From: Campylobacteraceae bacterium
GTDB taxonomy: Bacteria > Campylobacterota > Campylobacteria > Campylobacterales > Sulfurovaceae
Direction of reading: 5' to 3'
Length of the DNA: 35,286 nt
NCBI GenBank assembly: GCA_027024155.1
Contig: JALVTE010000061.1
Span: 1 to 35,286, forward strand
Of the stretch, positions 874-20,041 are shown in pieces. The position numbers and the translations under genes are program-made. Numbering within the stretch: position 1 is the stretch's first letter; every line of letters starts with the position of its first letter. Below the pieces are notes generated by a model. It was not told the origin of the DNA. It worked only from the letters and a program-made list of their open reading frames with translations, and searched no databases.

Positions 874-3540
874 TTATATTACATCCATTCCTATCTTTTT
901 TCTATAATATCTTAATACAATCATTTTAACCATATCATTAAAGACAAACCAGCTAAATGCATATCCCCATAGAAATAGAGCCCATTGCCAATTTATAGGT
1001 GTCATTAATCCAAAACCAAAAACTCCTATAATTGTTCCTAATATTGCTGTAGAAAACGATGCTAAAGCTAACACCCAAGATGGATATGGTTTTTTAAAGA
1101 ACCAATCGGCAATACGAGTATTAAATATTGTTAAATGTCCTGCAACTATAAGTTTTACAAAAAAGGCAGTTTGAACAAATCCTAAAAATGATTTATCATC
1201 TTTCATATTTATCCATGATGGAACTTCTGGTAAAAACATAGCTGTATCAGGATGTGATTTTAAATATACCATCGTAATATAAAAAATTGTAAAAGAGCTA
1301 AGCACTCCAGCAATTCCTAGCCAAGTTGATAAAACAAACATCTCTTTCATATCCCATCTAACAGGTTTTTCATGCACCTTGGTATTATCATAAGCAATAG
1401 TCATAATAGGTATATCATTAAGAAGTGCCAATACAATAATCATAATAGCTGTAATTGGATAAAAATTAAACACTACAATAGCCAAAGTCATAAAAATAAT
1501 AATTCTAATAGTTTCAGCTATTCTATAAATTACATAGCTTTTCATTCTTTCAAATATGATTCTTGCTTGTTTTATTGCATCAACAATAACCATAAGACCC
1601 GGTGCCATTAAAACTATATCCGCTGCTGCTCTCGCTGCATCAGTAGCACCACTAACAGCAATACCACAATCAGCCTTTTTAAGTGCTGGTGCATCATTTA
1701 CACCATCTCCTGTCATTCCAACAATATGATCCGCTTTCTGTAACTCATCCACAATAAAATATTTATCTTCAGGGAATACTTGTGCAAAACCATCAGCCTC
1801 TTCAATAAGTGATATTATTTCTGACTCATGTTTTTTAATTGTCCCTTTTGGTAATGGTCTGTTATATAACTCTTTTTTTACCTCTTCTACTATACTATAC
1901 ACATTTTTTTGAATATCTTTTTCAGAAGCAAGAGGTTCTAAAGTTTTTGTAATTGCTTTCGATAAAACCTCTGCTAAAAATAGATACTCATCATAACTCT
2001 CACCTTTTAACTCTCTTACATCTTCTATATTTTCACCAATACCTAAAATACCGGCAATATATTTAGCAACCGCAATATTATCGCCTGTTACCATCTTGAC
2101 TTTTACACCTTTTGCCTTTGCTTCTTTTATAGCATCTTTAGAGTCCTCTCTTGGAGGGTCAAACAAAGGTATAAGACCTACAAAGTGATATACATCTTCT
2201 TCACTATTTCTATAAGCAACACCTAATGTTCTAAAGCCTTTAGAAGCAAAATCATTTACCTTTTCATAAGCCTCTTGTTTATTAAATTCATGTTCATCAC
2301 ACTCTTCTATAATTACTTGAGGTGCACCTTTTGTAAATACTTTGCACCCATTTCCTTCATAAACTCCCTCTGTTCTTTTATGAACAGGGTCAAAAGGAAT
2401 AAATTTTTTCAATTTATATTTTACAAGTTCTTTTTTTAAACCATTTTTCTCTAAATATTCAAATATTGGTTTTTCTATAGGGTCTTTATTCTCCTCTTTA
2501 CTAGCAAGTGCCGCATATAACATAAGTTCATTCTCTGTATGATTCTTTGCAATATATGGAGTAGAAAGACTCATTTTATTTTGTGTAAGAGTTCCTGTTT
2601 TATCAGAACATAATATATCCATTCCAGCTAATTCTTCTATAGATGCAAGTCTCGATACAATAGCCTCTTTAGCTGCAAGAGCACGAGCACCTAAAGCCAT
2701 AGTTACAGTTAATACAGCAGGCATTGCTACAGGAATTGCGGAGATAGTAAGAACTAATGCAAATATTAGTAAATCAACAAGTGGTTCATCTCTTTTAATA
2801 CCAAAATACACAATTATAAATATCATTACAACTGTTACTGCTATTAAAAAATTACCCACTTTTATAACCATCTTTTGGAAATGACTTTGCTCCTCTCTTT
2901 GTGCTTTTGCTACAAGTCCAACAGTTTTTCCAAAATAAGTATTAAGTGCAGTTGCAGTAACTTTTGCAATCATTTCACCCTGTTTAACTATAGCATTAGC
3001 ATATAAAGTATCACCCACTTTTTTATTTACCGGTAAAGACTCTCCAGTAAGTGCTGACTGATCAACTTGTATAAAATCACTACCACCTATTAGTTCACAA
3101 TCTGCTGGAACAATATCACCAATTTTTATTTTAATAATATCATCTGGCACAATTTCTCGTGCATCTACTTGTTGCCACTCACCATCTCTTAAAACTGTTG
3201 CTTTTCTAGCTAATTTCTTTTTTAAAACAGCAATGGCATTTAAAGCTTTTGATTCTTGGTAGAAATCTACAAAAGCATTCACTAAAAGCATTACCATAAT
3301 AACAGTAAAATCTTCCCACCTTTTAGCAACTGCTGAGAGTATTGCAGCAATTTCTATCATCCAAGGAATTGGTCCCCAAAAACGTCTAAAGAGTCTATGA
3401 AACCAACTCTCTTCTTTCTCTTTTATCTCATTATAGCCAAACTTTTTCAGCCGTTCTGAAACTTCATCTTGAGTTAAACCTTTAAGATTACTTGTGTTTT
3501 TACTTACACTTACAGCTCTTTTTTTCTTGTTTTTCTTCAT
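874..3540 (-). CDS. P-type (PIIIA) plasma-membrane proton-transporting ATPase
   Basis: This is an inner-membrane cation pump of the P-type superfamily, 888 aa. Visible landmarks are LTGES (164-168), the phosphorylation site DKTGTLT with Asp313, KGAPQ (404-408), TGDN (485-488) and GDGVNDAPAL (611-620). The membrane segment LLNDIPIMTIAYD (706-718) has an Asp at 709 aligned with the proton-carrying Asp of plant and fungal H+-ATPases, which supports the PIIIA proton-pump class. Hydrophobic helices flank the A domain (about 60-95, 225-285) and fill the C-terminal third. The segment of about 80 residues between TGDN and the following FAQVFPEDKY is longer than I expect for plant/yeast PMA. The ATG has an AAAGGAG site and lies 12 bp after lipA. 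The gene is more AT-rich than the pdh genes. Proton specificity is inferred from family resemblance. Confidence 0.9.
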   Translation of the reverse strand: MKKNKKKRAVSVSKNTSNLKGLTQDEVSERLKKFGYNEIKEKEESWFHRLFRRFWGPIPWMIEIAAILSAVAKRWEDFTVIMVMLLVNAFVDFYQESKALNAIAVLKKKLARKATVLRDGEWQQVDAREIVPDDIIKIKIGDIVPADCELIGGSDFIQVDQSALTGESLPVNKKVGDTLYANAIVKQGEMIAKVTATALNTYFGKTVGLVAKAQREEQSHFQKMVIKVGNFLIAVTVVMIFIIVYFGIKRDEPLVDLLIFALVLTISAIPVAMPAVLTVTMALGARALAAKEAIVSRLASIEELAGMDILCSDKTGTLTQNKMSLSTPYIAKNHTENELMLYAALASKEENKDPIEKPIFEYLEKNGLKKELVKYKLKKFIPFDPVHKRTEGVYEGNGCKVFTKGAPQVIIEECDEHEFNKQEAYEKVNDFASKGFRTLGVAYRNSEEDVYHFVGLIPLFDPPREDSKDAIKEAKAKGVKVKMVTGDNIAVAKYIAGILGIGENIEDVRELKGESYDEYLFLAEVLSKAITKTLEPLASEKDIQKNVYSIVEEVKKELYNRPLPKGTIKKHESEIISLIEEADGFAQVFPEDKYFIVDELQKADHIVGMTGDGVNDAPALKKADCGIAVSGATDAARAAADIVLMAPGLMVIVDAIKQARIIFERMKSYVIYRIAETIRIIIFMTLAIVVFNFYPITAIMIIVLALLNDIPIMTIAYDNTKVHEKPVRWDMKEMFVLSTWLGIAGVLSSFTIFYITMVYLKSHPDTAMFLPEVPSWINMKDDKSFLGFVQTAFFVKLIVAGHLTIFNTRIADWFFKKPYPSWVLALASFSTAILGTIIGVFGFGLMTPINWQWALFLWGYAFSWFVFNDMVKMIVLRYYRKKIGMDVI

Positions 3541-3552
3541 TTCATACTCCTT

Positions 3553-4383
3553 TTACAAGTTACTCGCATTATATGAACTTCTTACCAAAACTCCCGATGC
3601 TACGGCTTTAAATCCCATATTGTAAGCCTCTTCTTTTATTTCATCAAAAAAGCTTTGAGGATAATACTTTTTTACCGGGTAATGTTTTGGGCTTGGCTGT
3701 AGATACTGCCCTATTGTTAGTTCGCTCACTCCAACATCTAGCAACTCTTGCATTGTCTCTTTAAGCTCTTGAAGACTCTCACCTAATCCTACCATTAAAG
3801 AGGATTTTACAATTTTTTTAGAGTGCTTTGCATAATAGTTTAACACTTTTAAACTTCTCTCATAATCGCTTTGGGGGCGGATTAATTTGCTTAATCTGCG
3901 CACAGTCTCTTGATTATGTGCCAATTTATGGGCATTAGTTGCGACTATTAACTCTAAAGAATTTAAATTATATCTAAAATCTGGGGTTAAAAGTTCTACT
4001 TTAGTTGCAGGATTTTTCTCTTTTACTGCTGCAACACAATTTACAAAATGCTCTGCGCCGTAATCGCTTAAATCATCCCTATCAACCGAAGTAATTACCA
4101 CATAATCAAGCTGTAAATCATAAATTGCCTGTGCTAAACGGCGGGGTTCTTCTCTGTCCACTTTTTCGCCTTTTCCTGTTTGAACATTACAAAATTTACA
4201 TGCTCTTGTGCAGATATTGCCCAAAATCATAAAGGTAGCGCTTTTTTTAGCATAACACTCGGCTCTATTGGGGCAAAGAGCTGCCTCGCATACTGTATTT
4301 AAGCGGTTTTTTTGCAAAACAGAGACAATTTTTTCTATCTCTTGCGGATTTGGCGCTTTTACTTTCGGTTTATAATAAGTCAT
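3553..4383 (-). CDS. lipA: lipoyl synthase (radical SAM)
   Basis: LipA inserts two sulfurs into protein-bound octanoyl groups to make the lipoyl cofactor of 2-oxoacid dehydrogenases. The 276-aa sequence has the auxiliary-cluster motif CX4CX5C (Cys32, Cys37, Cys43). It also has the radical-SAM motif CX3CX2C (Cys58, Cys62, Cys65) in the order specific to lipoyl synthases. The C-terminal RSSYNA holds the Ser that ligates the auxiliary cluster in studied LipA proteins. The ATG overlaps the lipB stop as ATGA, so translation is probably coupled. Position right after pdhA-pdhB-E2-lpd-lipB says it matures the E2 encoded upstream. Confidence 0.97.
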   Translation of the reverse strand: MTYYKPKVKAPNPQEIEKIVSVLQKNRLNTVCEAALCPNRAECYAKKSATFMILGNICTRACKFCNVQTGKGEKVDREEPRRLAQAIYDLQLDYVVITSVDRDDLSDYGAEHFVNCVAAVKEKNPATKVELLTPDFRYNLNSLELIVATNAHKLAHNQETVRRLSKLIRPQSDYERSLKVLNYYAKHSKKIVKSSLMVGLGESLQELKETMQELLDVGVSELTIGQYLQPSPKHYPVKKYYPQSFFDEIKEEAYNMGFKAVASGVLVRSSYNASNL

Positions 4384-4952
4384 ATAAAACTCTCTTTTAT
4401 AAAATTTACCATCTCTTTATTAACTTCATTTTGTGTTAAAAAAATACCCTCGTTTTTTAGCGATGTCGGAACAATACCGCTTAAATTGCAAGGATTTACC
4501 TGCGAATGAAAATTTAAATCCACATTTACATTCAGGGCAACACCATGCAAAGAAACCCCTTGAGAGTAGCGAAAACCCAAAGAGGCTATTTTTCTCTTTC
4601 CGATATAAAAACCGGGGTTCTTTTTATCAAATTGAACACTTGGCAGATATTTATTAAAAAATTTACCAAACGAATCGATTACCCTTTTATAAAAAAAGGC
4701 AGGGCTTTTTACTTGAAAACAGAAATAGTAAATATTCTGCCCCGGTGAGTGGCAAGTAATAGAACCGCCTCTGTCGCATTTGACGGTATCGACATAAAAG
4801 CTTGCTTTCTCATCATACCCTACGGTAAAAACATTCGGGTGCGAACACAAAATTAAATGGTTCTTTTTATCTTTTAAAGCTTTGCTATGCACTGCCTGCA
4901 TCATTTCGCGCCCCTTGCTATACTCTATTTCGCCCCAATTATGTATAATCAT
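4380..4952 (-). CDS. lipB: octanoyl-[ACP]:protein N-octanoyltransferase
   Basis: LipB moves octanoyl from acyl carrier protein to the lipoyl-domain lysine, giving LipA its substrate. In the 190-aa product I see RGG (61-63), the HSPGQ segment (His68, equivalent to HGPGQ), the catalytic Lys121 in KRKIASLGFR, HGVALNVNVDL (136-146), and the acyl-accepting Cys155 in NPCNLSG. The sequence is divergent (ITCHSPGQNIYYF instead of the usual VTYHGPGQ) but the Lys/Cys dyad is kept. It overlaps lpd upstream and lipA downstream by ATGA on both sides, which implies tight coupling of cofactor synthesis with the complex. Confidence 0.93.
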   Translation of the reverse strand: MIIHNWGEIEYSKGREMMQAVHSKALKDKKNHLILCSHPNVFTVGYDEKASFYVDTVKCDRGGSITCHSPGQNIYYFCFQVKSPAFFYKRVIDSFGKFFNKYLPSVQFDKKNPGFYIGKRKIASLGFRYSQGVSLHGVALNVNVDLNFHSQVNPCNLSGIVPTSLKNEGIFLTQNEVNKEMVNFIKESFI

Positions 4953-6259
4953 AATCTATAAAACGCCCTATCAATAGCTTCAGAAAATGTAGGATGCGCC
5001 AATATAGCTTTTTGCGCCTCTTTTGCATCCATTTCGCCTGCAACTGCCATTGCAACAATTCCAATAAGCTCTTGGGCATTTGGCGCTAAAATCTCTCCGC
5101 CTAAAATAAAGCCCTGCTTATCGCTGTAAATAACAACTAAGCCATTTGTGGCACGGTTATATGCCGAGTAGGTAAATTGGCTAAGCGGCACAATAGTCTC
5201 TTTATACTCATCATCTTTAAGCATAGATTTTATCTCTCCGACATAAGCATAACTCATCGGCAGAGTGTTGATAAATTTTACAACACTATTTAAATTAAGC
5301 TTTTTAGGCGTTTTGCCAAGTATCCTTTGTGTAACATTTAAAACTTCGGCTCTTGCTGCGTGCGCTAACTGCAATTTACCGTTACAATCGCCTACAGCAT
5401 AGTGGTCTTTTAAAGATGTCTCAAAAAATGCATCTGTTTTAATGCTTCTATCAACTTCTATATCTTTGCACTCTATTACATCAATGTTTGCTTTTCGCCC
5501 TGTTGCAACAAGCAGCATTGGTGTATAAATAGTTTTGCCATCTTCAAATACAATATGCACACCCTTTTTAGTATCTTTTGCACTTTTTATCGAATGCTCC
5601 AGCAAAAAGCTTACACCCAGTTTTTCCAACTCTTTTTGGATATGCTGTGCAATCAGCGGGTGTGCTTTTGCTAAAATCTGCTCTTTTCTGTAAATTAGCG
5701 TAACTTCAACTTTTGCACTCGCAAAAAAGCTTGCCATCTCTAAAGCAATGGCACCTGCACCGTAAATTGCAACTTTTTTAGGCAATTCCTGCAATTTCAA
5801 GACTTCATCGCTTGTAATAATATCTTTTTTGTTATACTCTATGCCATCTGGGATAAAAGCACTCGAACCTGTTGCGATAACAATGTTTTTTGCCTCTAAA
5901 ATTTTTCCGTCTGCTTCAACTCTGTAAGGGGCAATTAATTTTGCATCTGCCTCTATTAAATCCACATTGGCACACTGTTTTAGAATAACTTGGGTTACAT
6001 TTTTAAGCAGTTTCTCTTTTTTGCTGACTAACTCTTGCATATTCAGCGAAATTTTGCCCTCTAAAATAGGGTTATCACTCTCGCTTACAATATTTGCATA
6101 ATGCAAAAACATTTTGGAAGGAATACACCCCTTATGCAGACACACTCCGCCAAGCTGAGACATATCTTTTTCGATAAGGGCAACCTTTTTGCCATTTTTT
6201 ACAGCAACTACCGCACCGGCATAATTTAATCCACCACCGATATAGATTATGTCATACAT
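4949..6259 (-). CDS. lpdA: dihydrolipoyl dehydrogenase (E3) of the pyruvate dehydrogenase complex
   Basis: This FAD/NAD disulfide oxidoreductase reoxidises the dihydrolipoyl arm of E2. I start it at the ATG at 6259 (MYDIIYIGGG, 436 aa). That codon sits just behind GAGGAGG, whereas the longer frame opens with a TTG that is part of this ribosome site. The FAD motif is GGG near residues 8-10. The redox pair is in GGVCLHKGCIPSK (Cys40, Cys45). NAD binding is at AIYGAGAIALEMA, and the C-terminal active-site His422 is in AHPTFSE. The ATG lies one base after the E2 stop. The C-terminal motif has AHPT rather than HPHPT, and the essential His remains. A second, different lpd lies at 15218-16618. Confidence 0.94.
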   Translation of the reverse strand: MYDIIYIGGGLNYAGAVVAVKNGKKVALIEKDMSQLGGVCLHKGCIPSKMFLHYANIVSESDNPILEGKISLNMQELVSKKEKLLKNVTQVILKQCANVDLIEADAKLIAPYRVEADGKILEAKNIVIATGSSAFIPDGIEYNKKDIITSDEVLKLQELPKKVAIYGAGAIALEMASFFASAKVEVTLIYRKEQILAKAHPLIAQHIQKELEKLGVSFLLEHSIKSAKDTKKGVHIVFEDGKTIYTPMLLVATGRKANIDVIECKDIEVDRSIKTDAFFETSLKDHYAVGDCNGKLQLAHAARAEVLNVTQRILGKTPKKLNLNSVVKFINTLPMSYAYVGEIKSMLKDDEYKETIVPLSQFTYSAYNRATNGLVVIYSDKQGFILGGEILAPNAQELIGIVAMAVAGEMDAKEAQKAILAHPTFSEAIDRAFYRL

Positions 6260-6260
6260 T

Positions 6261-7553
6261 TTACGCCTCCTCAAAATTTTGCGGATTTTGTATCTCTTCT
6301 TTTAAATCTTTTACAAAAAGAGCCGCTTCGTAACCGTTAATAAGCCTATGGTCAATAGTTAAAGTAATATTTAACTCTTTATTTTCTATTGCTCCTACTG
6401 CAACTATGCCGCTTTCATCTTGGTTTATCATTGCATCAAAACGGTTAATTTTAAGCATTCCAAGATTAGAAATCCCAAAATTCCCACCACTCAACTCTTC
6501 GGGGCGGAAAGTTTTGCTTTGCAATTTGCTTTTAAATGCTTCTAACTTTTGGCTGATTTCTTGAATGCTTAAATTTTGTGCTCCTTTGATAACCGGCATA
6601 TAGAGATTTTTTGCATCTGCTACGGCAACAGAGATATTCGCATTTGGTGAAACTAAAAGCATATTACCATTCATTTTCGAGCGGAAACTCTCATACCGCA
6701 TCATCACTTTTGCAAAAATTTTCACAAGCCATGCGGTAATGCTGTGCTTTTTGTTTTTTTCTAAAAGTTCACTGTTTAGACTCTCGTAAATATGGTAAAT
6801 AGGTTTTTGCGCCGAAGCTGTTACATTTGCAATAATCGCTTTTTGCATCGAATTTATCGGAACCTCTTTAGAGAGATTACGGCTTTGAATAAAGGCTTCA
6901 AGCTCTTGTGTATCTATTTTATGCTCTAGTGTAAACTCTTTAAAATCAATTTTAAAATCATCAAGCAGCTGCCGTGCTTTTGGGGTAAAGTATCTCTCTT
7001 TTATAAATTCGATAACATCTTCGCTATGTATTGTTTCATTTGCATACTTTTTAAAAAGCGCTTTTATATCAACTCCATACTCTTGCACTAACTCTTTAGC
7101 TTTTGGCGAAATTTGGCTCTCTTTTGGAACTTCTAAGTTTTTGGGCACTGCGTTTAACTCTTTTGCAACGGCACTCTCTTTATACTCTGCCGGCTCTTTT
7201 TTATGAGGAGCTTCTTTTGTGGGCTCTTTAAGAGTTTTCTCTTTTTTTTCTTCAGGAACACTCTCTTTTGGCTCTTTTGCCTTATGAACGCTCTCTTCAC
7301 TGCCTTTTACCTCATCTTGGCTCTCTATTTTGGCAATGACTGTTTTTACAGGAACGGTGCTTCCCTCTTTTACAAGCAGCTCTTTTATTACACCAGCGTG
7401 AAATGTCTGCACTTCCATTATCGCTTTATCGCTTTCGACTTCGGCAATAACATCACCGACTTTTACCGTGTCGCCAACCTTTTTCTTCCACTCGATTAAT
7501 TTACCCTCTTCCATAGAGTCGGAGAGTTGAGGCATTACAATATTATAAACCAT
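6261..7553 (-). CDS. aceF: dihydrolipoamide acetyltransferase (E2) with two PSBD-like segments
   Basis: This core subunit of pyruvate dehydrogenase (430 aa) transfers acetyl from E1 to CoA. One lipoyl domain covers residues 1-78, with the lipoylated Lys43 in ESDKAIME. A Lys/Glu/Pro-rich linker follows (81-147). Then come two consecutive subunit-binding-like segments, SPKAKELVQEYGVD (from 149) and TPKARQLLDDFKID (from 190), where most single-lipoyl E2 chains have one. The acyltransferase domain fills about 232-430. The catalytic motif reads DHRLINGYEAA: His402 is present, but the Asp of HxxxDG is Asn406. It overlaps E1 beta by 11 bp and precedes E3 by one base. The neighbouring E1 subunits make pyruvate the likely substrate; a branched-chain or acetoin complex is less likely. 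Confidence 0.93.
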   Translation of the reverse strand: MVYNIVMPQLSDSMEEGKLIEWKKKVGDTVKVGDVIAEVESDKAIMEVQTFHAGVIKELLVKEGSTVPVKTVIAKIESQDEVKGSEESVHKAKEPKESVPEEKKEKTLKEPTKEAPHKKEPAEYKESAVAKELNAVPKNLEVPKESQISPKAKELVQEYGVDIKALFKKYANETIHSEDVIEFIKERYFTPKARQLLDDFKIDFKEFTLEHKIDTQELEAFIQSRNLSKEVPINSMQKAIIANVTASAQKPIYHIYESLNSELLEKNKKHSITAWLVKIFAKVMMRYESFRSKMNGNMLLVSPNANISVAVADAKNLYMPVIKGAQNLSIQEISQKLEAFKSKLQSKTFRPEELSGGNFGISNLGMLKINRFDAMINQDESGIVAVGAIENKELNITLTIDHRLINGYEAALFVKDLKEEIQNPQNFEEA

Positions 7554-8520
7554 TTTTATGCCCCCACTCTATAACTTTTTTTGTAATCGAATCGACTGTT
7601 GGAATAGAAGCTAACTCCAACTTTCTATTATAAGGAATAGGCACATCTTCTCCTGCAATGCGTAGTGGCGGTGCATCAAGAGAGTAAAAGAGCTCTTCGG
7701 CAGCCCAGCTTACAATTTGCGAACCAAATCCGCCGGTTTTATGGTCTTCTTCTACCATAACTAAACGCGAAGTTTTCTTTATCGATTTTGCAAGGGTTTC
7801 GTAATCTATCGGATTTAAAGAGCATAAATCTATAACTTCACAACTGCAGTTTAACTCTTTTTCTATCGCTGCAACACTGGCTGTTACATCATCTAAAATT
7901 TTTAGATAACTCACAATCGTAATATCTTTGCCCTCTTTTACCACTCTTGCTTTAAAGGGGTCTTGTGTATCATTAAAATCAACTTCGCCCTTTTTGTTAT
8001 AGAGCAATTCATGCTCTATAAAAACAACAGGGTCATCTAATAAAATCGCCTTTTTCAAAGCGTGATAAGCGTGATTCACATCCGAAGTGGCAACAACGCG
8101 AAGCCCCGGTACGGCACTGAGCATCTGCTCGTAACTTTCACTATGTTGTGCTGCTAATTGCCGGCTGACACCTTGCGGAAAACGCACAACCATCGGTAGT
8201 TTAATTTTACCATTACTCATATAGTGAAATTTAGACATATGGTTAATAATTTGGTCAAACGCCAGCAGAGAAAAGTTTGCTGTCATAATTTCTGCAACAG
8301 GTCTTAAACCCCCTATTGCCATACCTACCGCATTTCCTACAATACTTAACTCTGCAATGGGCGTATCTATTACCCTCTTTTCGCCATATTTTTCTACCAA
8401 TCCTTCCGTTACTCGGTAACTGCCGCCATAGAGCCCCACATCTTCGCCTAAAATAACGATATTTTCATCTTTTTGCATCAATTCATCTAATGCTCTGTTG
8501 AGTGCTTCACGATACAACAT
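7543..8520 (-). CDS. pdhB: pyruvate dehydrogenase E1 component, beta subunit
   Basis: This is the beta half of the heterotetrameric E1 (325 aa), which decarboxylates pyruvate with thiamine diphosphate. Family markers are GEDVGLYGGSYRVT (25-38), DTPIAELSIVG (52-62) with Glu57 placed to activate the thiamine ring, and AAQHSESYEQM with His126. EEDHKTGGFGSQI in the C-terminal transketolase-type domain is also typical. The ATG follows GAGGAG and overlaps the end of pdhA by 14 bp; the 3' end overlaps E2 by 11 bp. Split alpha/beta E1 differs from the single-chain AceE of enterobacteria. The 2-oxoacid specificity is inferred from the setting, since branched-chain and acetoin E1 beta subunits look similar. 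Confidence 0.92.
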   Translation of the reverse strand: MLYREALNRALDELMQKDENIVILGEDVGLYGGSYRVTEGLVEKYGEKRVIDTPIAELSIVGNAVGMAIGGLRPVAEIMTANFSLLAFDQIINHMSKFHYMSNGKIKLPMVVRFPQGVSRQLAAQHSESYEQMLSAVPGLRVVATSDVNHAYHALKKAILLDDPVVFIEHELLYNKKGEVDFNDTQDPFKARVVKEGKDITIVSYLKILDDVTASVAAIEKELNCSCEVIDLCSLNPIDYETLAKSIKKTSRLVMVEEDHKTGGFGSQIVSWAAEELFYSLDAPPLRIAGEDVPIPYNRKLELASIPTVDSITKKVIEWGHKNGL

Positions 8521-9478
8521 TGTTTAACTCCTCATAAAAAACATGCTCATAGAGTGCTTCGAGCGGAGGCTCTTTGGCATTTGCTGCAAAATCAACCGCT
8601 TCATCTACACACTCATTTGCTTTTTTCTCAAGCGCTTCTACCTCTTCTTGGCTAAAGTTAAAACTGTTTAACATTTTCTCTTTAAAATAGGGTAAAGGGT
8701 CTCTTGCTTTGCAGTGTTTCATCTCTTGCGAACTTCTGTATAAATTGGCATCGCTCATCGAATGCCCCTCGAATCGGCAAGTATAAGCCTCTATAAAGAT
8801 AGGTCCGTGCCCCTTCTCTATTAAACTTTGCGCCTCTTTTACGGCACTGTAAACTTCGTCGGCTTTCATACCGTCGATTGCTTTTGTAAGCATATAGGGC
8901 TCTGCTTTTTTATACTGCTCTTTAAATGGTGCAGCTCTTTTTATATTGGTGCCGATTGCATATTCGTTATTTTCACAAAGAAAAAGTATAGGCAATTTAT
9001 GCGTAGCAGCTATATTTAACGATTCAAAAAATGCGCCCCCGTTTGTAGCACCATCGCCAAATACAACCATTACGCCCTCTAAATTTCCTTGATACTTTCT
9101 AGCATATGCACACCCTACGGCATTAGGGATTTGCCCGCCGACTATCGCATCGCCTCCGTAAAAAAAGTGCGATGGGTCAAAAAGGTGCATAGAACCGCCC
9201 TTTCCGCCACTTACACCGCTTGCTTTGCCAAAGAGCTCCGCCATTACATACTTTGGCTCCATACCTCTAGCTATTGCCATAATATGCTCTCGGTAAGTTG
9301 TAAAAACATCACCTTTTTCAAACGCTTTCATTGCAGCGACACTTAAAGCTTCTTGTCCAATATCTAAATGCAAAAAGCCTGAAATATCGCCTGTCATATA
9401 GTGCTCTTTTGCTTTATACTCAAAAGCACGCCCTAAATACATAAGATAATATATATCCCCGGCAATTAATTTCTCCAT
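8507..9478 (-). CDS. pdhA: pyruvate dehydrogenase E1 component, alpha subunit
   Basis: This is the thiamine diphosphate-binding alpha subunit of E1 (323 aa). The thiamine motif starts at GDGATNGG (141-148) and ends at the ENN of residues 169-171. The segments GQIPNAVGCAYARK (115-128), TYREH (61-65) and RFEGHSMSD (235-243, the E1 alpha loop with His239) are typical of pyruvate dehydrogenase E1 alpha. An AGGAG site precedes the ATG. It is the first enzyme gene of the complex and follows the glycine-zipper gene by 50 bp, a gap that contains a small stem-loop. With E1 beta, E2, E3, LipB and LipA it makes a self-contained pyruvate dehydrogenase module. Such a module is notable because the well-studied Campylobacter and Helicobacter use pyruvate:acceptor oxidoreductase. 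Confidence 0.93.
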   Translation of the reverse strand: MEKLIAGDIYYLMYLGRAFEYKAKEHYMTGDISGFLHLDIGQEALSVAAMKAFEKGDVFTTYREHIMAIARGMEPKYVMAELFGKASGVSGGKGGSMHLFDPSHFFYGGDAIVGGQIPNAVGCAYARKYQGNLEGVMVVFGDGATNGGAFFESLNIAATHKLPILFLCENNEYAIGTNIKRAAPFKEQYKKAEPYMLTKAIDGMKADEVYSAVKEAQSLIEKGHGPIFIEAYTCRFEGHSMSDANLYRSSQEMKHCKARDPLPYFKEKMLNSFNFSQEEVEALEKKANECVDEAVDFAANAKEPPLEALYEHVFYEELNNVVS

Positions 9479-10083: not shown

Positions 10084-10089
10084 ATTATA
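10084..10089 (-). promoter_or_regulatory. -10 element of the leftward (pdh-run) promoter
   Basis: On the minus strand the hexamer reads TATAAT (GGTATATAATTCC context), 34 bp upstream of the first start codon. No -35 hexamer lies at the right distance; the nearby bases belong to the dyad at 10111-10126. The expected start of transcription is near 10077. This is predicted from sequence only. Confidence 0.6.
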
Positions 10090-10110
10090 TACCAAAAAAA
10101 AATTTTTAAA

Positions 10111-10126
10111 TGTTACCTAAGTAACA
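10111..10126. promoter_or_regulatory. Crp/Fnr-type operator shared by two divergent promoters
   Basis: The sequence TGTTACCTAAGTAACA is a perfect inverted repeat (TGTTAC, four bases, GTAACA). It has the same geometry as Crp sites (TGTGA-N6-TCACA, here TGTTA-N6-TAACA). Exactly 21 bp separate it from each flanking -10 hexamer, so its centre would fall near -41.5 for both promoters, the class II activator position. The regulator itself is not in the window, so its identity and its sign of action are unknown. Confidence 0.6.
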
Positions 10127-10147
10127 CTAATTTTTTTTTATTTGAGT

Positions 10148-10153
10148 TATACT
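10148..10153 (+). promoter_or_regulatory. -10 element of the rightward (ppsA-run) promoter
   Basis: TATACT, preceded by a T-rich tract (10131-10143) typical of Campylobacterota sigma-70 promoters and with no TTGACA-like -35 box. The expected transcription start is near 10160, leaving a leader of roughly 75 nt before ppsA. It mirrors the leftward -10 element around the dyad. Predicted from sequence only. Confidence 0.55.
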
Positions 10154-10236: not shown

Positions 10237-12651
10237 ATGTCTAAAAATATTAAATGGTTTAGCGAAATCGGCATAGAAGATGTGCCAGAAGTTGGCGGGA
10301 AAAATGCTTCGCTTGGCGAAATGTATCGCAACTTAACAAGCGAAGGTGTTTTGGTTCCAAATGGTTTTGCAGTAACTGCATCTGCTTATAAATATGTATT
10401 AGACAGCAACAGTGCATGGGAAAAACTGCATAAAGAGTTGGATAATTTAAATGTAAACGATGTAAATGCCTTGCAAAAAGCGGGTAAAAACTGTAGAGAA
10501 ATTGTTTATAACTGCAAATTGCCGCAAGATTTAAAAGAAGAAATTCTTAACGCTTACGCCAAACTAAAAGAGGAATATGGCGAAGGGCTCTCTTTGGCTG
10601 TGCGTTCATCTGCTACGGCAGAAGACTCTCCCGAGGCTTCATTTGCGGGGCAAAATGATACTTACTTAAATATATCTACAGAAGATGAACTTTTAGATGC
10701 TTATAAAAGATGTTTGGCATCTAACTTTACTGACCGCTCTATACATTATAAATACGATAACGGCTTTGACTATTTAAAAGTCTATCTATCTGTTGTTGTT
10801 ATGAAAATGGTGCGCAGCGATATAGGAGCTAGCGGTGTTATGTTCTCTCTTGATACAGAAACAGGCTTTAGAGATGTTGTATTTATAAATGCCGCTTTAG
10901 GGCTTGGTGAAAATGTTGTGCAAGGAGCTATAAATCCAGATGCATTTTATGTGCATAAACCGACATTTAATAAAGGTTTTAGAGCAGTATTAAAACGCTC
11001 TTTGGGCTCTAAAAAGAAAAAAATGGTATTTGCAGATACGATAAATTTGCACAATATCGCCGTTGAATATACAAAAAATATCCCTACAACAGAGCAAGAG
11101 CAAAACCATTTTTGTATAAGTGACGATGAAGTAATGGTATTAGCCGATTATGCTATTAAAGTAGAAAAGCACTACTCTAAAAAGGCAGGATACCATAAGC
11201 CGATGGATATGGAGTGGGCAAAAGACGGGATTGACGGCAAACTCTATATGGTGCAAGCACGCCCCGAAACTGTGCAGTCTCAGAAGAAAGGGAATGTATT
11301 AGAAGTTTACCGTCTTAAAGAGAAAGGCGAAGTTTTAGTCACCGGGCAGGCAATAGGCACAAAAATCGGAAGAGGAAAAGCACACTATATTAAAGATGTA
11401 AGCGAATTGAATCAATTTAAAGCAGGCGAAGTTTTGGTAGCAGATACTACAAACCCCGATTGGGAACCTATTATGAAAATTGCTTCAGCTATTATAACAA
11501 ACAAAGGCGGAAGAACCTGCCACGCAGCAATTTTAAGCAGAGAGCTAGGCATTCCGGCAGTTGTAGGGTGCGATAATGCAACCGAAGTTTTAAAAGATGC
11601 AGATAATGTTACTGTTAGCTGTGCCGAAGGCGAAGTGGGATATGTTTATAAAGGATTGCTCGATTTCGAAATAGAAAAAACCGATTTAAGCAATCTTCCA
11701 AAAACAAAAACCGAAATTATGATGAATTTAGGAAATCCAGATTTAGCTTTCTCTTTAAGTTCACTTCCAGTTGATGGCATCGGTTTGGCTAGAATGGAAT
11801 TTATAATTAACGAATATATAAAAGCCCACCCAATGGCATTAAAACATCCTGAAAAAGTAGATGAAAAAACAAGAGAAGCACTAGAGAATTTAGCAAGAGC
11901 TTACGATTCTTTAGAAGATTTCTTTGTAAAAACACTCTCTGAAGGTGTGGCTACTATTGCTTCAAGCGTTTATCCAAAAACCTGTGTTGTTAGAATGAGC
12001 GACTTTAAATCTAACGAATATGCATCTTTGCTTGGAGGAAGCTTTTTTGAATTAAAAGAAGACAACCCAATGATTGGCTTTAGAGGGGCTTCGAGATATG
12101 CACATCCAAATTACGAAGAGGGCTTTGCCTTAGAGTGTGCAGCAATGAAGAGAGTGCGCGAAGAGATGGGCTTTGATAATGTTATTTTAATGATACCGTT
12201 TTGCCGAAGAGTTCAAGAGGGGCAAAAGGTTATTGAGACAATGGCAAAATACGGCTTAAAACAGGGTGAAAACGGATTGCAGATTTATGTTATGTGCGAA
12301 ATCCCAAATAATGTTATTCAAATCGATGCATTCAGCAAAATTTTTGACGGATTTAGCATAGGAAGCAATGACTTAACCCAATTAACCCTTGGCGTAGATA
12401 GAGACAGTCAAATTGTTGCTTTCGATTACGACGAACGCGACGAAGGGGTAAAAGAGATGATTAAATTAGCCGTAGAGGGGTGCCAAAGAAATAACCGCCA
12501 TAGCGGTATTTGCGGACAAGCACCATCTGATTATCCTGAAATTGCGGAATATTTGGTAAAACTTAATATCGACTCTATCAGTTTAAACCCAGACAGTGTC
12601 TTAAAGACAATTCAAGACATTAGTAAATTAGAAGAAAAACTTGGGAGATAA
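10237..12651 (+). CDS. ppsA: phosphoenolpyruvate synthase (pyruvate, water dikinase)
   Basis: PpsA converts pyruvate, ATP and water to PEP, AMP and phosphate, the entry step of gluconeogenesis. I choose the ATG at 10237 (804 aa, MSKNIKWF). The AAGGTGA ribosome site covers the upstream in-frame GTG at 10228, which would make that GTG start unlikely. Domains run in the usual order: an ATP-grasp N-terminal domain with GGKNASLGEM and the AVRSSATAEDSPEASFAGQ segment, the swivelling phosphohistidine domain (GGRTCHAAI, His429), and the TIM-barrel PEP/pyruvate domain ending in SGICGQAPSD, which carries the active-site Cys. The length fits the family. It is the first gene of the rightward run and two bases before the aldolase. 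Confidence 0.97.
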   Translation: MSKNIKWFSEIGIEDVPEVGGKNASLGEMYRNLTSEGVLVPNGFAVTASAYKYVLDSNSAWEKLHKELDNLNVNDVNALQKAGKNCREIVYNCKLPQDLKEEILNAYAKLKEEYGEGLSLAVRSSATAEDSPEASFAGQNDTYLNISTEDELLDAYKRCLASNFTDRSIHYKYDNGFDYLKVYLSVVVMKMVRSDIGASGVMFSLDTETGFRDVVFINAALGLGENVVQGAINPDAFYVHKPTFNKGFRAVLKRSLGSKKKKMVFADTINLHNIAVEYTKNIPTTEQEQNHFCISDDEVMVLADYAIKVEKHYSKKAGYHKPMDMEWAKDGIDGKLYMVQARPETVQSQKKGNVLEVYRLKEKGEVLVTGQAIGTKIGRGKAHYIKDVSELNQFKAGEVLVADTTNPDWEPIMKIASAIITNKGGRTCHAAILSRELGIPAVVGCDNATEVLKDADNVTVSCAEGEVGYVYKGLLDFEIEKTDLSNLPKTKTEIMMNLGNPDLAFSLSSLPVDGIGLARMEFIINEYIKAHPMALKHPEKVDEKTREALENLARAYDSLEDFFVKTLSEGVATIASSVYPKTCVVRMSDFKSNEYASLLGGSFFELKEDNPMIGFRGASRYAHPNYEEGFALECAAMKRVREEMGFDNVILMIPFCRRVQEGQKVIETMAKYGLKQGENGLQIYVMCEIPNNVIQIDAFSKIFDGFSIGSNDLTQLTLGVDRDSQIVAFDYDERDEGVKEMIKLAVEGCQRNNRHSGICGQAPSDYPEIAEYLVKLNIDSISLNPDSVLKTIQDISKLEEKLGR

Positions 12652-12653
12652 TT

Positions 12654-13559
12654 ATGAAATTTCAAGATATTCCAGCAGATGTTCCAAAAGAGAAAGTTTT
12701 AGAGTATAAACAAACTCTCGAAGAGGTCACAAACGGCTCAGAGCGTTTAATGCTCTTTGCCGGCGACCAAAAGGTAGAGCATTTAAATAACGATTTTTAC
12801 GGAGAAGGCATCGCAAAAGATGACAACTCTCCGGAGCATCTTTTTAAAATAGCTTCGCAAGCAAATATAAGCGTTTTTGCTACACAATTTGGCTTAATCA
12901 GCAGATATGGAAGAGAGTATAGAGATATTCCTTATCTTGTAAAGTTAAATTCTAAAACTAATATTATTCCTTACGATGCAAAAGACCCGATTTCTCAAGC
13001 GTGGTTGAGTGTAGAAGATGTTGTTGCTTTCAAAAAGAGCAGCGGTTTAAATATAAAAGGTGTGGGTTATACTGTCTATTTGGGGAGTAAATACGAGCAT
13101 ATTATGCTCTCTGAAGCTGCTCAAATTGTGCATAAAGCTCATCAAAATGGACTTTTAGCAGTATTATGGATATATCCAAAAGGCAAGTTTATAGAAGATG
13201 AGCACGACGGGCACTTAATTGCCGGCGCAGCGGGTGTAGGTGCAGCATTGGGCGCGGATTTTATTAAATTAAAAGTTCCGTATGATGATAATGGCAACTT
13301 TAAAGCCCAGCTTTTGCAAGAGGTAACAACAGCAGCTGGGAAAAGCGGTGTTTTATGCGAAGGCGGCAGTAAAACAAATGAAATTCTGTTTTTAAAAGAA
13401 CTTTATGAGCAAATCCATATAGGCGGCAGCAGAGGTAATGGAACAGGAAGAAATATTCATCAGCGCCCGTTACAAGAGGCTATAAAAATGGCAAATGCCA
13501 TTTATGCAATAACATGTGAAGATAAAAGCGTAGAGGATGCCATAAAAATATTGAGTTAA
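12654..13559 (+). CDS. fbaB: fructose-bisphosphate aldolase, class I (DhnA/FbaB type)
   Basis: This enzyme joins or splits fructose 1,6-bisphosphate and triose phosphates by a Schiff base, without metal. The 301-aa product looks like a DhnA-type single-domain TIM barrel: FAGDQKVEH near the N terminus, the ADFIKLKVPY strand carrying the probable Schiff-base lysine (Lys205, or Lys207), and a phosphate-binding end (EGGSKTNE, then GGSRGNGTGRNIHQR). It follows ppsA by two bases. Together with eno, pgi and gap it gives the reversible stem of gluconeogenesis/glycolysis. No phosphofructokinase or fructose bisphosphatase is seen in this window. The broader DhnA/LacD/DeoC superfamily has other aldolases, but the setting favours fructose bisphosphate. 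Confidence 0.9.
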   Translation: MKFQDIPADVPKEKVLEYKQTLEEVTNGSERLMLFAGDQKVEHLNNDFYGEGIAKDDNSPEHLFKIASQANISVFATQFGLISRYGREYRDIPYLVKLNSKTNIIPYDAKDPISQAWLSVEDVVAFKKSSGLNIKGVGYTVYLGSKYEHIMLSEAAQIVHKAHQNGLLAVLWIYPKGKFIEDEHDGHLIAGAAGVGAALGADFIKLKVPYDDNGNFKAQLLQEVTTAAGKSGVLCEGGSKTNEILFLKELYEQIHIGGSRGNGTGRNIHQRPLQEAIKMANAIYAITCEDKSVEDAIKILS

Positions 13560-13580
13560 ATGCAGTATCTTTACTGCATT
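13559..13580 (+). other. perfect hairpin between aldolase and transporter genes
   Basis: AATGCAGTA and TACTGCATT form a perfect 9-bp stem around a TCTT loop, beginning on the last base of the aldolase stop codon. No T-run follows (TAATAATAAAG), so it is unlikely to end transcription on its own. It sits in the longest gap (42 bp) of the rightward run, so an RNA-processing or 3'-end protection role is plausible. Confidence 0.55.
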
Positions 13581-13601
13581 AATAATAAAGAGGTGTAGGT
13601 T

Positions 13602-14861
13602 ATGCAGTTACATTTAAAAGAAAAAATTAAATTAGACATTGCCAAAAATAGAGAACGTATAAAAAAGCTAGGTCCTGGGCTTATTACCGGCGGTGCAGGC
13701 GATGACCCGGCAGGCATAGTAACTTACAGTATTGTAGGGGCTACAACTGGCTTTTCTCAGCTTTGGCTTTTACTGCTCTCTACGCCTATGATGGTAGCTA
13801 TCCAAAATTTAGTAGCAAGAATTGCGATTGTTACAGGCAAAAGTTTACCGGAAATCACAAAAGCATTCTACTCTAAAAAGATAACTGTTTTAATGATTAT
13901 GACTCTTGCTGTTGCTAATTTGCTTACCATTGGAGCCGACTTAAACGGTGTTGCTGCAATTTTGCATATTCTTTTTGGATATAAAAGTGTTCATTTTCTT
14001 ATTCTGGTAACTGCAATTATTGCATATCTTATAACCTTTGGGCAGTATAAAAAGGTAAAAAAAGTCTTTATAACTTTAACGGTTTTACTTGCTGTTTACA
14101 TAGTAGCGGCTATTTTGGCAAAGCCCTCTTTAGTGCTGCTTTTAAAAAGCACTTTTATTCCACACATTAATATGAGCAGTGCCTGGATTATTGCAGCGCT
14201 TGGAATGCTTGGCACAACTATTTCGCCATACCTTCTCTTCTGGCAGGCTGCAGAGGAGAAAGAGGAAAAAAACAGTATTGTGCAAGCTGATGAGGTGAGT
14301 TTTGATACGATTACCGGTATGGCATACTCTAATTTGCTAGCTTACGCAATGATAGTTTCATCTGCCGTAATGCTTTATGGTTCTCATAGCAATATTCAAG
14401 ATATTACAACATTAGCAAAAGCTATTAAACCGGTTGCGGGCGATTACGCCTTTGCTCTTTTTGCAGTTGGCATTATAGTTTCTGGCTTTTTAGCTATACC
14501 AGTGCTTGCAGGTTCTACTGCTTATGCGGTGGCTGATACATTTGGCTGGCGTGAAGGTATGGATTATAAAGTTAGTGATGCGAAGGGATTTTATTTTGTA
14601 TTTTTAGGCTCTCTTATTGTAGGAGATTTTATAAATATAATACCAAATATCACAGTTGTAGATGCATTATACTATTCGCAAGTGCTTGATGGTATGCTAA
14701 TCCCTATACTTATAGGATATGCTCTGGTTATTGGAAACAATAAAACAATTATGGGTGAATTTACAGCTACAAAGTTTCAAAATATTTTTTCACTCTTTGC
14801 TATGGCAGTAACTGTTATTTTAACAGCTGTAATGGTTTGGCAATGGGTCAATCCAAACTAA
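13602..14861 (+). CDS. Nramp-family transporter, non-canonical metal site
   Basis: This is a polytopic inner-membrane protein of 419 aa with about 11 hydrophobic segments, related to the Nramp (Slc11) divalent-metal/proton symporters. The opening GPGLITGGAGDDPAGIVTYS is the family's first helix, but DPGN is replaced by DPAG (35-38). In the sixth helix the MPH motif is replaced by SPY (TTISPYLLFWQAAEE, 205-219). Two of the usual metal ligands (the Asn of helix 1 and the Met of helix 6) are therefore absent, so classical Mn/Fe transport should not be assumed. A GAGGTG ribosome site lies upstream. Its place among carbon-metabolism genes might mean supply of Mg or Mn to PpsA, enolase and Pgm, but that is a guess. 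Confidence 0.82.
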   Translation: MQLHLKEKIKLDIAKNRERIKKLGPGLITGGAGDDPAGIVTYSIVGATTGFSQLWLLLLSTPMMVAIQNLVARIAIVTGKSLPEITKAFYSKKITVLMIMTLAVANLLTIGADLNGVAAILHILFGYKSVHFLILVTAIIAYLITFGQYKKVKKVFITLTVLLAVYIVAAILAKPSLVLLLKSTFIPHINMSSAWIIAALGMLGTTISPYLLFWQAAEEKEEKNSIVQADEVSFDTITGMAYSNLLAYAMIVSSAVMLYGSHSNIQDITTLAKAIKPVAGDYAFALFAVGIIVSGFLAIPVLAGSTAYAVADTFGWREGMDYKVSDAKGFYFVFLGSLIVGDFINIIPNITVVDALYYSQVLDGMLIPILIGYALVIGNNKTIMGEFTATKFQNIFSLFAMAVTVILTAVMVWQWVNPN

Positions 14862-14871
14862 GGAGAAAATT

Positions 14872-15225
14872 ATGAAAAGTGTAAACGAGAAGTTAAAAGA
14901 GATTAAATTATTAATTGGTAGGTTGGAAAAAGATACGCCTAAGCAAATAGAAGCATTTAATAAATTTATGCAAGCAACAGAGAGTTCTAATGCAATAGAT
15001 AGAAAAATGCAAGAGCTTATTAACCTCGCTTTAGCAGTGGCTGCACAGTGTGAATGGTGCATTGCTTTGCATGTAAATGGTGCGATTGATGCAGGGGCTA
15101 GCAAAGAGGAGATTTTAGAATCAGCAATGCAAGCGGTATTGATGCATGGGGGACCGGCATTAATGTATATGATACCTGTTGAAAATGCAATAAATGAACT
15201 ATTGGAGGGTAAAGAAGATGAGTAA
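14872..15225 (+). CDS. AhpD-like (carboxymuconolactone decarboxylase family) protein
   Basis: This small (117 aa) helical protein belongs to the AhpD/CMD family. The CxxC pair is Cys60-Glu-Trp-Cys63, followed by His67 in CEWCIALHVNGA. Glu48 lies 12 residues before Cys60. Mycobacterium AhpD has the proton-relay set Glu118, Cys130, Cys133, His137, with exactly the same spacing, so a thiol peroxidase or disulfide reductase activity is well supported. A GGAG site precedes the ATG. The last 8 bp overlap the start of the second lpd. In Mycobacterium, AhpD passes electrons from lipoyl-E2 and Lpd to AhpC; the fusion-like gene order here suggests a similar chain. The partner peroxiredoxin is not in the window. 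Confidence 0.85.
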   Translation: MKSVNEKLKEIKLLIGRLEKDTPKQIEAFNKFMQATESSNAIDRKMQELINLALAVAAQCEWCIALHVNGAIDAGASKEEILESAMQAVLMHGGPALMYMIPVENAINELLEGKEDE

Positions 15226-16618
15226 AGAGTATGATTTAATCGTAATTGGTGCAGGACCGGCAGGGACACCGGCAGCTATGGCAGCTGGCAAATTTGGTAA
15301 ACGGGTGCTTTTAATAGATAAACGAGAGGCTCCGGGAGGCGAATGCCTTTTTGAGGGGTGTATTCCATCTAAAGTTTTAGAAAATGCAGCGAATAAATTT
15401 GCAGAAGTAAAAAACTCTACTCTTTTTCATATCGATTTAAGCGGAAAAGAGCAGATACATTGGGAACAAGTTATTGCAGATAAAGCAGAAATTGTAAAAA
15501 AACGCTCTATAGCTGCATTAAAATCAATCGAAGCTATGACAAATATTGATTTCTTGCAAGGCGAAGCTGTTTTTACAGATTCGCAAACTATAGAGGTTGC
15601 AGGGGAGCAGTTTAAATTTAAAAAGGCACTCATTGCCTCTGGAGCAAATAGTTTTATTCCAAAGATTGGTGGAAACGGCTTAGATAAGGTTTGGACAAAT
15701 AAAGAGATATTTTATAATAAAGAGTTGCCTAAAGAGTTGCTTTTTATAGGGGCTGGAGCAATTAGCTGCGAATTGGCGCAAATGTTTAATAAACTTGGCG
15801 TTAAATGCACAATTCTTACCCGTTCAGAGAGAATTTTAAAGCATATCTCTAAAGATGCCGCTTTAATTGTTCAAAATCGATTGATTCAAAATGGCGTTAC
15901 AATAGAATTTAATGTTCATTTAGAAAAGATTGATTACGAAAACAGCAATTTTGCACTCTATTTTGAGCAAGATGAAAAAGAAGTTCTTTTAACTGCCCCA
16001 AATATTGTTATGGCAACAGGTCGAAGTGCCAATGTTGAAGGTTTAGGTTTAGAGAAAGCAGGTGTAGAATATGACAGACACGGTGTTATTGTAAATGAGT
16101 ATCTGCAAAGTTCCCAAAGCCATATTTATGCTGCGGGCGATTGTATAAATGCTCCAAAATTTGCACATACTGCATCGTATGAAGCAGGTGTAGTTGTGCA
16201 CAATATGTTTGCACCAAAACCGATGGAAGCAGACTTTAGCAAAAACAGCTGGGTTTTATTTAGCGACCCGCAAGTCGCCGTTGCAGGAATAGATGAGCAG
16301 AGCGCCCAAAAGTTTGGCAGAGAGATAGAGACGGCAATTTATGAATATAAAAGCGATGCCCGTGCACAAATAGATAAAAGAGCCGAGGGTTTTTTAAAAT
16401 ATATTATCGATAAAAAGACAAAAGAGATAATCGGTGCAGAGATAGTAAGTGAAGATGCCTCTTCTTTGGTTGGAGAAGCCTCTTTAATTATTGCGAATAA
16501 AATGAAAGCAACAGATATTTTAAAAGCAATTCATCCGCACCCTACCTTAACAGAATCTTTTGGCAAATTGGCACAAGAGTTGTTTTTTAAACAAATGATG
16601 CAAAATAGGAGAGGATAA
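15218..16618 (+). CDS. lpd: second dihydrolipoyl dehydrogenase
   Basis: This FAD disulfide oxidoreductase has 466 aa from the ATG at 15218 (MSKEYDLIVIGAGPAG). The ATG is placed 8 bp after GGAGGG and overlaps the AhpD-like gene by 8 bp; a longer in-frame extension upstream lies inside that gene and is rejected. The redox motif is GGECLFEGCIPSK (Cys43, Cys48), the NAD motif is FIGAGAISCELA, and the catalytic end is HPHPTLTES with His441 and Glu446. It is closer to the standard Lpd length and C-terminal motif than the E3 of the pdh cluster and is clearly a different protein, not a fresh duplicate. It could serve another 2-oxoacid or glycine cleavage complex, or reduce the AhpD-like partner. Confidence 0.93.
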   Translation: MSKEYDLIVIGAGPAGTPAAMAAGKFGKRVLLIDKREAPGGECLFEGCIPSKVLENAANKFAEVKNSTLFHIDLSGKEQIHWEQVIADKAEIVKKRSIAALKSIEAMTNIDFLQGEAVFTDSQTIEVAGEQFKFKKALIASGANSFIPKIGGNGLDKVWTNKEIFYNKELPKELLFIGAGAISCELAQMFNKLGVKCTILTRSERILKHISKDAALIVQNRLIQNGVTIEFNVHLEKIDYENSNFALYFEQDEKEVLLTAPNIVMATGRSANVEGLGLEKAGVEYDRHGVIVNEYLQSSQSHIYAAGDCINAPKFAHTASYEAGVVVHNMFAPKPMEADFSKNSWVLFSDPQVAVAGIDEQSAQKFGREIETAIYEYKSDARAQIDKRAEGFLKYIIDKKTKEIIGAEIVSEDASSLVGEASLIIANKMKATDILKAIHPHPTLTESFGKLAQELFFKQMMQNRRG

Positions 16619-16619
16619 A

Positions 16620-17897
16620 ATGGCACAGACAACAATTAAAGATATTAAAGCGTTAGAGATTTTGGATTCGAGAGGCAACCCTACTGTTCGTGTTTTTATG
16701 GAATTGGAAGACGGCACGAAAGTAAGCTCTTCTGTGCCATCTGGTGCTAGCACCGGAGAGTATGAAGCGGTAGAGCTTAGAGATGGCGATATGTCTCGAT
16801 ATGATGGGAAAGGTGTATTAAAAGCTGTTAAGAATGTGAATACTAAAATTGCTGATTTTATAATCGGTTTAGATGCAACGAACCAGGCAGAGATTGATTA
16901 TGCAATGATTGAACTTGACGGCACGGAGAATAAGTCTCGGCTTGGAGCAAATGCAATTTTGGGTGTTTCTATGGCGGCAGCTAAAGCAGCAGCGGCATCT
17001 TTAGGAGTAGAGCTGTTTCGCTATTTAGGCGGAACAGATGCACGCAGAATTCCGGTGCCTTGTATGAATATTTTAAACGGCGGGGAGCATGCCGATAACA
17101 GCGTGGATTTTCAAGAATTTATGGCTGTTCCGGTAGGAGCACCTACTTTTAGCGAAGGGTTGCGTTATGTGGCACAAACTTTTCATCAGTTAAAAAAGAT
17201 TTTGGCTTCTAAAGGTTTGGCAACTTCAGTTGGCGACGAAGGTGGGTTTGCACCCAATTTAAAAAGCAATGAAGAGGCGATGGAACTTATTATCGAAGCG
17301 ATAGAAAAAGCCGGTTTCCGCCCCGGCGAAGATATTATGATAGGCATAGACAGCGCTGCTACTTCGTTTTCGACAGATAAAAAAGAGCACTACAATTTAA
17401 AATGGTCAGGACGAGGAGAGATGACAAGCGATGATTTAATCGAATTGGCAAAAGAGTGGGTAGATAAATATCCGATAATCTTTTGGGAAGACCCGCTTGC
17501 CGAAGAGGATTGGAGCGGTTTTGCAAAATTTACCAAAGAGCTGGGCGATAAAATCGAAGTAATCGGTGATGATATTTTTGTTACCAATACAAAATTTATT
17601 AAACGCGGTATTAAAGAGCATACAGCCAATGCCTCTTTGATAAAACTAAACCAAATAGGCACAGTAACCGAAACTATCGATGCAGTCAGATTATGCCGCG
17701 ATAACGGCTGGCGATACCTAATTTCGCACCGTTCAGGCGAAACTGCCGATACATTCTTGGCAGATTTTGCAGTGGCAATGGATGGCGGACACTTAAAAAG
17801 CGGTTCGGCTTCTCGAAGTGAAAGACTAGCAAAATATAACAGACTTTTAGAGATAGAGATGCTACTTGAAGATAGTGCAATTTACACTTGGAAATAG
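16620..17897 (+). CDS. eno: enolase
   Basis: Enolase interconverts 2-phosphoglycerate and PEP with Mg2+. The 425-aa product has the N-terminal ILDSRGNPTVRV segment, the flexible loop SGASTGEYEA, the general acid/base Glu207 in SVGDEGGFAP, the base Lys342 in SLIKLNQIGT, and the signature ISHRSGETADTFLADFAV. Metal ligands lie in IGIDSAATSF and WEDPLAEEDW. Start and length are normal; an AGGAGAGG site and a one-base gap follow the second lpd. It supplies or uses PEP made by PpsA, the first gene of this run, while the mutase that feeds it is encoded at the far end of the opposite run. Confidence 0.98.
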   Translation: MAQTTIKDIKALEILDSRGNPTVRVFMELEDGTKVSSSVPSGASTGEYEAVELRDGDMSRYDGKGVLKAVKNVNTKIADFIIGLDATNQAEIDYAMIELDGTENKSRLGANAILGVSMAAAKAAAASLGVELFRYLGGTDARRIPVPCMNILNGGEHADNSVDFQEFMAVPVGAPTFSEGLRYVAQTFHQLKKILASKGLATSVGDEGGFAPNLKSNEEAMELIIEAIEKAGFRPGEDIMIGIDSAATSFSTDKKEHYNLKWSGRGEMTSDDLIELAKEWVDKYPIIFWEDPLAEEDWSGFAKFTKELGDKIEVIGDDIFVTNTKFIKRGIKEHTANASLIKLNQIGTVTETIDAVRLCRDNGWRYLISHRSGETADTFLADFAVAMDGGHLKSGSASRSERLAKYNRLLEIEMLLEDSAIYTWK

Positions 17898-17908
17898 AGG
17901 GGGATAAA

Positions 17909-20029: not shown

Positions 20030-20041
20030 AAAAGGATTAAT

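Follow-up and report, generated by a model that had tools for sequence, protein, structure and literature searches.

Two divergent gene runs in the window studied here, a 35,286-nucleotide stretch of a Campylobacteraceae genome (G000), are separated by a spacer that holds a perfect 16-bp dyad with a -10 box on either side. This arrangement raises the question of which protein would read the palindrome and what it would do for the genes in both directions. The first-pass annotation had taken the dyad for a class II site of a Crp/Fnr-family activator, one dimer of which could drive both runs together and so decide what happens to pyruvate.

The dyad and the gene runs that flank it

Re-reading of the sequence confirmed the dyad and both hexamers at the positions given in Table 1, with exactly 21 bases on each side. 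If the transcription starts are placed 7 bp past each -10 box, the dyad centre (10118.5) would lie 41.5 bp from either start. A scan for a conventional sigma70 -35/-10 pair found none beyond chance at the window promoters, in agreement with the earlier remark that neither carries a -35 box. In C. jejuni and H. pylori, sigma70 promoters as a rule have none (PMC3847290), so the absence is unremarkable.

Table 1 Features of the window, Crp/Fnr proteins and genes behind the sites of G000
Feature	Position or locus	Strand	Remark
Perfect 16-bp dyad TGTTACCTAAGTAACA	10111..10126	none	Predicted operator of a Crp/Fnr-type activator; kept in G004
-10 box TATAAT, leftward promoter	10084..10089	-	21 bp from dyad; start inferred near 10077
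-10 box TATACT, rightward promoter	10148..10153	+	21 bp from dyad; start inferred near 10160
YflT-like small protein, 173 aa	9529..10050	-	First gene of leftward run; own PF11181 match weak (E 0.05)
Pyruvate dehydrogenase E1alpha, E1beta, E2 and lipoamide dehydrogenase	4949..9478	-	Overlapping genes
Lipoate ligase-like, radical SAM and plasma-membrane-type H+-ATPase genes	874..4952	-	Leftward run
PEP synthase	10237..12651	+	First gene of rightward run; ATG at 10237
Aldolase, Nramp-type transporter, CMD protein, flavin oxidoreductase, enolase	12654..24213	+	Rightward run; closely spaced
Glycogen phosphorylase, phosphoglucomutase, nucleotidyl transferase genes	within 12654..24213	+	Rightward run; closely spaced
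C120-type protein	G000:C120:24668-25345 (L154)		Candidate activator
P0001, C121 paralog	C121:37355-38068		Crp/Fnr
Second C121 paralog	C121:40444-41142		Crp/Fnr
Pyridine-nucleotide oxidoreductase	L001		Site with -10 at 21 bp
Thioredoxin 2	L016		Site with -10 at 21 bp
YfdX, then DUF308 (HdeD-like) gene	L017		Site with -10 at 21 bp
Amino acid permease	L018		Site with -10 at 21 bp
Bax-inhibitor-like gene	L019		Site with -10 at 21 bp
AMMECR1	L022		Site with -10 at 21 bp
YfdX	L060		Site with -10 at 21 bp
Hsp20-like protein, divergent from rhodanese	L062		Site with -10 at 21 bp
DnaK	L063		Site with -10 at 21 bp
Rhodanese	L064		Site with -10 at 20 bp

The pyruvate dehydrogenase genes start 50 bp behind the YflT-like gene, whose homolog in G039 matches the YflT "heat induced stress" domain (PF11181) at 2.9e-11. 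Gaps within both runs are short (no more than 50 bp), which is compatible with two operons but does not prove them.

The gene order around the site is kept in the sister species G004. The first-pass annotation had tied its reading to conservation of the dyad in relatives of the same gene order, and the intergenic alignment bears this out: the core (10084-10160) is 97% identical between G000 and G004 and the whole spacer 95%, both above the flanking genes at 86 and 91%. The G004 dyad reads TGTTACCTAGGTAACA, with a single change that falls at a free position of the motif.

Copies of the motif and their distance to the -10 box

The element is not confined to the window. The genome scan for the 16-bp dyad returned three matches to TGTTACN4GTAACA in the 2.15-Mb genome and none for the reversed control. 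Comparison of the matches revealed a fixed central TA; the degenerate form TGYWACNTANGTWRCA has 12 matches in G000 with a reversed-pattern control of zero, and TGNNACNTANGTNNCA has 14, again with a control of zero. Every one of the 12 genus genomes has one or more matches to TGYWACNTANGTWRCA. The fixed central TA is needed, as a scan of the genome with two mismatches was noisy (176 matches versus 110 for the control), and within the window such matches numbered 43 where 32 were expected. Across the order, 63 of 399 genomes contain the composite of site, N21 and TANNNT, whereas the control pattern matched once over the whole set.

Two further groups of matches were observed. The window dyad recurs without change, on the other strand, within a 384-aa gene (L002, G000:C18:27332-27347). 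This copy has no -10 box at the right spacing and may be a chance match or a decoy. In family f8 (L184-L186), a different Crp-type protein is found near TGTAACATATGTTACA-type sites, with a gene for a small DUF2892-like membrane protein behind the site in two of these loci (L185 and L186). The f8 sites may represent a separate system with a similar operator, and some motif matches therefore need not belong to one system.

The distance to the promoter is strongly constrained. The flanks of 56 genus sites were read, taking any hexamer with a match of at least 5/6 as a -10 box. Of the 111 flanks, 45 have such a box exactly 21 bp away, compared with 2.8% at other spacings, and 43 of the 56 sites have one on at least one side. 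In G000 alone, 11 of the 24 flanks of 12 sites show it against a background of 2.9% (binomial p ~2e-11), whereas the pooled genus p-value is inflated because the sites include orthologs. Only the window site and its G004 ortholog have a -10 box at 21 bp on both sides. An inverted repeat centred near -41.5 from the inferred starts, at a fixed and preferred distance from the -10 box, is the geometry of a class II site for a Crp/Fnr-family activator, which lends support to this part of the first reading.

Two other accounts of the palindrome can be judged by these counts. The region is AT-rich and two-mismatch matches are common in the window, as would be expected if the palindrome had fallen by chance between two unrelated -10-like hexamers; however, the exact and degenerate counts with their zero controls, the exact spacing and the conservation leave this account a negligible probability. 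Alternatively, the dyad could be the operator of a repressor, of the Crp/Fnr type or of the MarR, TetR or another family, lying over the -35 region of both promoters. A perfect palindrome that overlaps the polymerase contact region and -10 boxes near consensus would suit repression, and C. jejuni does control heat shock by repressors (PMC7464140). A repressor needs no exact spacing, however, whereas 21 bp is strongly preferred here, and the motif tracks a Crp/Fnr protein with a fitting helix, which makes repression quite improbable. Overall, the 16-bp palindrome almost certainly belongs to a set of about a dozen predicted sites in this genome for a Crp/Fnr-type activator.

Genes behind the sites and the candidate regulator

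The genes that follow the sites of G000 are listed in Table 1. Hsp20 is a frequent target in the relatives. Among the loci read across the order, the site precedes DnaK in family f4; YfdX, HdeD-like, Hsp20 and ClpB-like genes in f6; an HdeD-like gene in f9; and rhodaneses in f18 and f22, the names having been assigned by eye from N-terminal sequences and from likeness to the profiled genus proteins. This gene content suggests that the sites mark a protein-quality-control regulon with a role in stress. A conserved gene of about 265 aa with a LEDIE..HPSDF motif was also seen, located between the regulator and YfdX in f6 (L205-L208 and L211) and divergent from YfdX across the site in the own genus (L060 of G000). 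HrcA (PF01628) was found in none of the 12 genus genomes, whereas a control search of 14 named genomes was positive in 7. Open-licence papers describe no heat-shock regulon under a Crp/Fnr protein for this group as far as they were searched, which is weak evidence.

Across the genus, and in several families beyond it, chaperone and thiol-stress genes carry this element at this spacing, which speaks against a dedicated pyruvate switch. In addition, for the ten remaining genomes of the genus, several of the 12 being incomplete, no site that was read precedes PEP synthase or the pyruvate dehydrogenase genes, so that this member of the regulon appears to be limited to G000 and G004. A site that decides what happens to pyruvate is thus not supported in that form; a better description is that two sister species have drawn metabolic operons into a stress regulon.

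G000 encodes five Crp/Fnr proteins. The C120-type protein is present in 12 of 12 genus genomes, and three of these (71-82% complete) have no other Crp/Fnr match. Outside the genus, the motif occurs in 38 of 78 genomes with a C120-type protein and in 12 of 60 without one (Fisher p 6e-4, kinship ignored). The co-occurrence is loose, given that the remaining 40 of the 78 genomes have no exact motif match. In genus g2, which is without the C120 type, three of the four inspected matches lie inside genes. Gene order also associates the regulator with the site: five f6 loci read regulator, one gene, site and YfdX, and one f9 locus reads regulator, site and HdeD-like gene. In G063 (genus g3), the regulator is upstream of YfdX, the site and Hsp20, two genes from the site. 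In the own genus, the flanks read of the C120 gene hold no motif.

Other family members of G000 were considered. The FNR-like proteins of C91 and C35 were set aside: their helix is VTPETFSR, and TTGAT-type sites precede their own genes. These two near-identical genes (L065 2191 and L066 950) are each preceded by TTGAT-N4-ATCAA and adjoin near-identical undecaprenyl-phosphatase-like genes, forming a duplicated block. P0001 adjoins a site but is not the first choice, as its distribution does not match that of the motif; a search of the named genomes with it returned a single distant protein. P0001 and the second C121 paralog lie within 3 kb of each other, and one of them adjoins a YfdX/HdeD-like pair and a motif match (L017 1501-2318).

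The window site could still be used by one of the C121 paralogs, instead of or alongside the C120 type. Both keep R180 without E181, their helices reading R-T-L and R-A-M at positions 180, 181 and 185; P0001 and a YfdX gene diverge from a motif match between them; and G000 and G004, both of which have the TGTT-type window site, belong to the small number of genomes with such paralogs. Within the genus, the paralogs are confined to G000 and G005 plus a fragment in G004, however, and cannot explain the whole regulon because most genus genomes carry the motif without them. We regard their use of the window site as unlikely.

The properties of the C120-type protein agree with its being the regulator. 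PF00027 and PF13545 both score over the cut-off, placing it in the Crp/Fnr family, and PDB profile hits and Foldseek agree on the Crp/Fnr fold, the structure model being moderate (pLDDT 74, pTM 0.60) and used for the fold only. In the alignment of 30 orthologs, R180 and H181 are each present in 30 of 30, with R or K at 185. The residue-base rule reported in PMC1274295 pairs position 180 with G3 of the site and position 181 with A6. Arg180 and His181 would thus fit a motif that keeps TG at its ends and does not keep TGTGA. An FNR-type Fe-S cluster is excluded by the lack of cysteine in 26 of the 30 orthologs and the presence of just one in the other four.

The ligand pocket also differs from the one in CRP. 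In an alignment with M. tuberculosis CRP, the 30 orthologs have an invariant His92 at the place of Arg82 and T, V or L at the place of Glu72, so that neither of these cAMP contacts (E. coli CRP numbering) is present. His92, at the place of the Arg that binds the cAMP phosphate in CRP, is a candidate sensing residue. This His, position 92 of L154, does not vary among the C120-type proteins, and the C121 paralogs have it too. Overall, the dyad is probably the site of a homodimeric Crp/Fnr activator, most likely of the C120 type, acting in class II position within a stress regulon.

Proposed mechanism and comparison with known systems

We propose that a C120-type dimer, bound at -41.5, would contact RNA polymerase directly at promoters that have a -10 box only, and would activate them in response to protein-folding or thiol stress. 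In the window, one dimer would serve both divergent promoters. With no more than 83 bp between the predicted starts, there is unlikely to be room for two polymerases at a time, and they would probably exclude each other. By analogy with bidirectional promoters, where strong activation one way may limit the other (PMC12825309), the two promoters are more likely to compete for polymerase than to fire at the same time. The dimer is placed for both directions, as first described. Under stress, pyruvate dehydrogenase and the proton pump would rise with the chaperones in one direction, and PEP synthase with the sugar-phosphate and glycogen genes in the other.

On balance, we lean towards an order-wide proteostasis regulon with a dedicated Crp/Fnr activator and a new operator, TGYWACNTANGTWRCA, in a genus in which no HrcA was found, to which two sister species would couple central carbon metabolism via one symmetric bidirectional class II promoter. 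If true, relatives without HrcA would use a positive Crp/Fnr regulator for their chaperones, a solution unlike the repressors of C. jejuni and H. pylori, and a large group of unnamed Crp/Fnr proteins would gain a function. The proposal supplies a precise operator and a target list that are open to testing. Moreover, the window site would illustrate how one 16-bp element read both ways could wire central metabolism into a stress regulon.

E. coli CRP at class II promoters likewise has a 16-bp inverted repeat at -41.5, the same fold and an Arg180 that goes with TG. A single CRP dimer or site common to divergent promoters, placed between them as in the window, is known (PMC3105977, citing El-Robh and Busby 2002). 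However, the CRP operator is TGTGA-N6-TCACA and its helix R180/E181/R185, whereas here the half-site is TGYWAC, the helix reads R/H/R with His181, the Glu72 and Arg82 contacts are absent, the promoters are without a -35 box and the targets include chaperones. NssR of Campylobacter jejuni, likewise a Crp/Fnr activator of stress genes, has the operator TTAACnnnnGTTAA and A180/Q181 (PMC1274295); both its operator (TTAAC-N4-GTTAA) and its specificity residues differ from the motif and helix found here. The earlier statement that the half-site is unlike those of Crp and NssR therefore holds.

In HcpR2, also of the Crp/Fnr family, Arg180 is kept and Glu181 lost (PMC1274295). Its consensus GTAACnnnnGTTAC is contained in the motif; the operator GTAAC-N4-GTTAC falls within the degenerate form, but the window site itself reads GTTAC. 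The similar motif and the same loss of E181 would be expected of an HcpR/NssR-like nitrosative-stress site, but residue 181 of HcpR2 is Pro, Ser or Gln and not His (PMC1274295), the motif here has a fixed central TA, and the targets read are chaperone and thiol genes, with no hcp or globin among those profiled. Such a site is very unlikely.

For the C120-type activator, parallels in function are found in other phyla. DdrI of Deinococcus radiodurans is a Crp/Fnr protein needed for tolerance to heat and other stresses, but it binds CRP-like sites without cAMP (PMC11253593). FnrN of Rhizobium drives a small heat-shock protein, but from the operator TTGA-N6-TCAA (PMC11784457). Closer to this group, HrcA and HspR repress the heat-shock genes of C. 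jejuni; these systems (HrcA/CIRCE and HspR/HAIR, in C. jejuni and H. pylori) likewise cover DnaK and other chaperones, but as repressors (PMC7464140). Finally, the tLST island overlaps in gene kinds, with Hsp20, YfdX, HdeD and thioredoxin. Whereas tLST is one mobile island of beta- and gammaproteobacteria, the genes described here are scattered over the chromosome and tied together by a common operator (PMC8290217).
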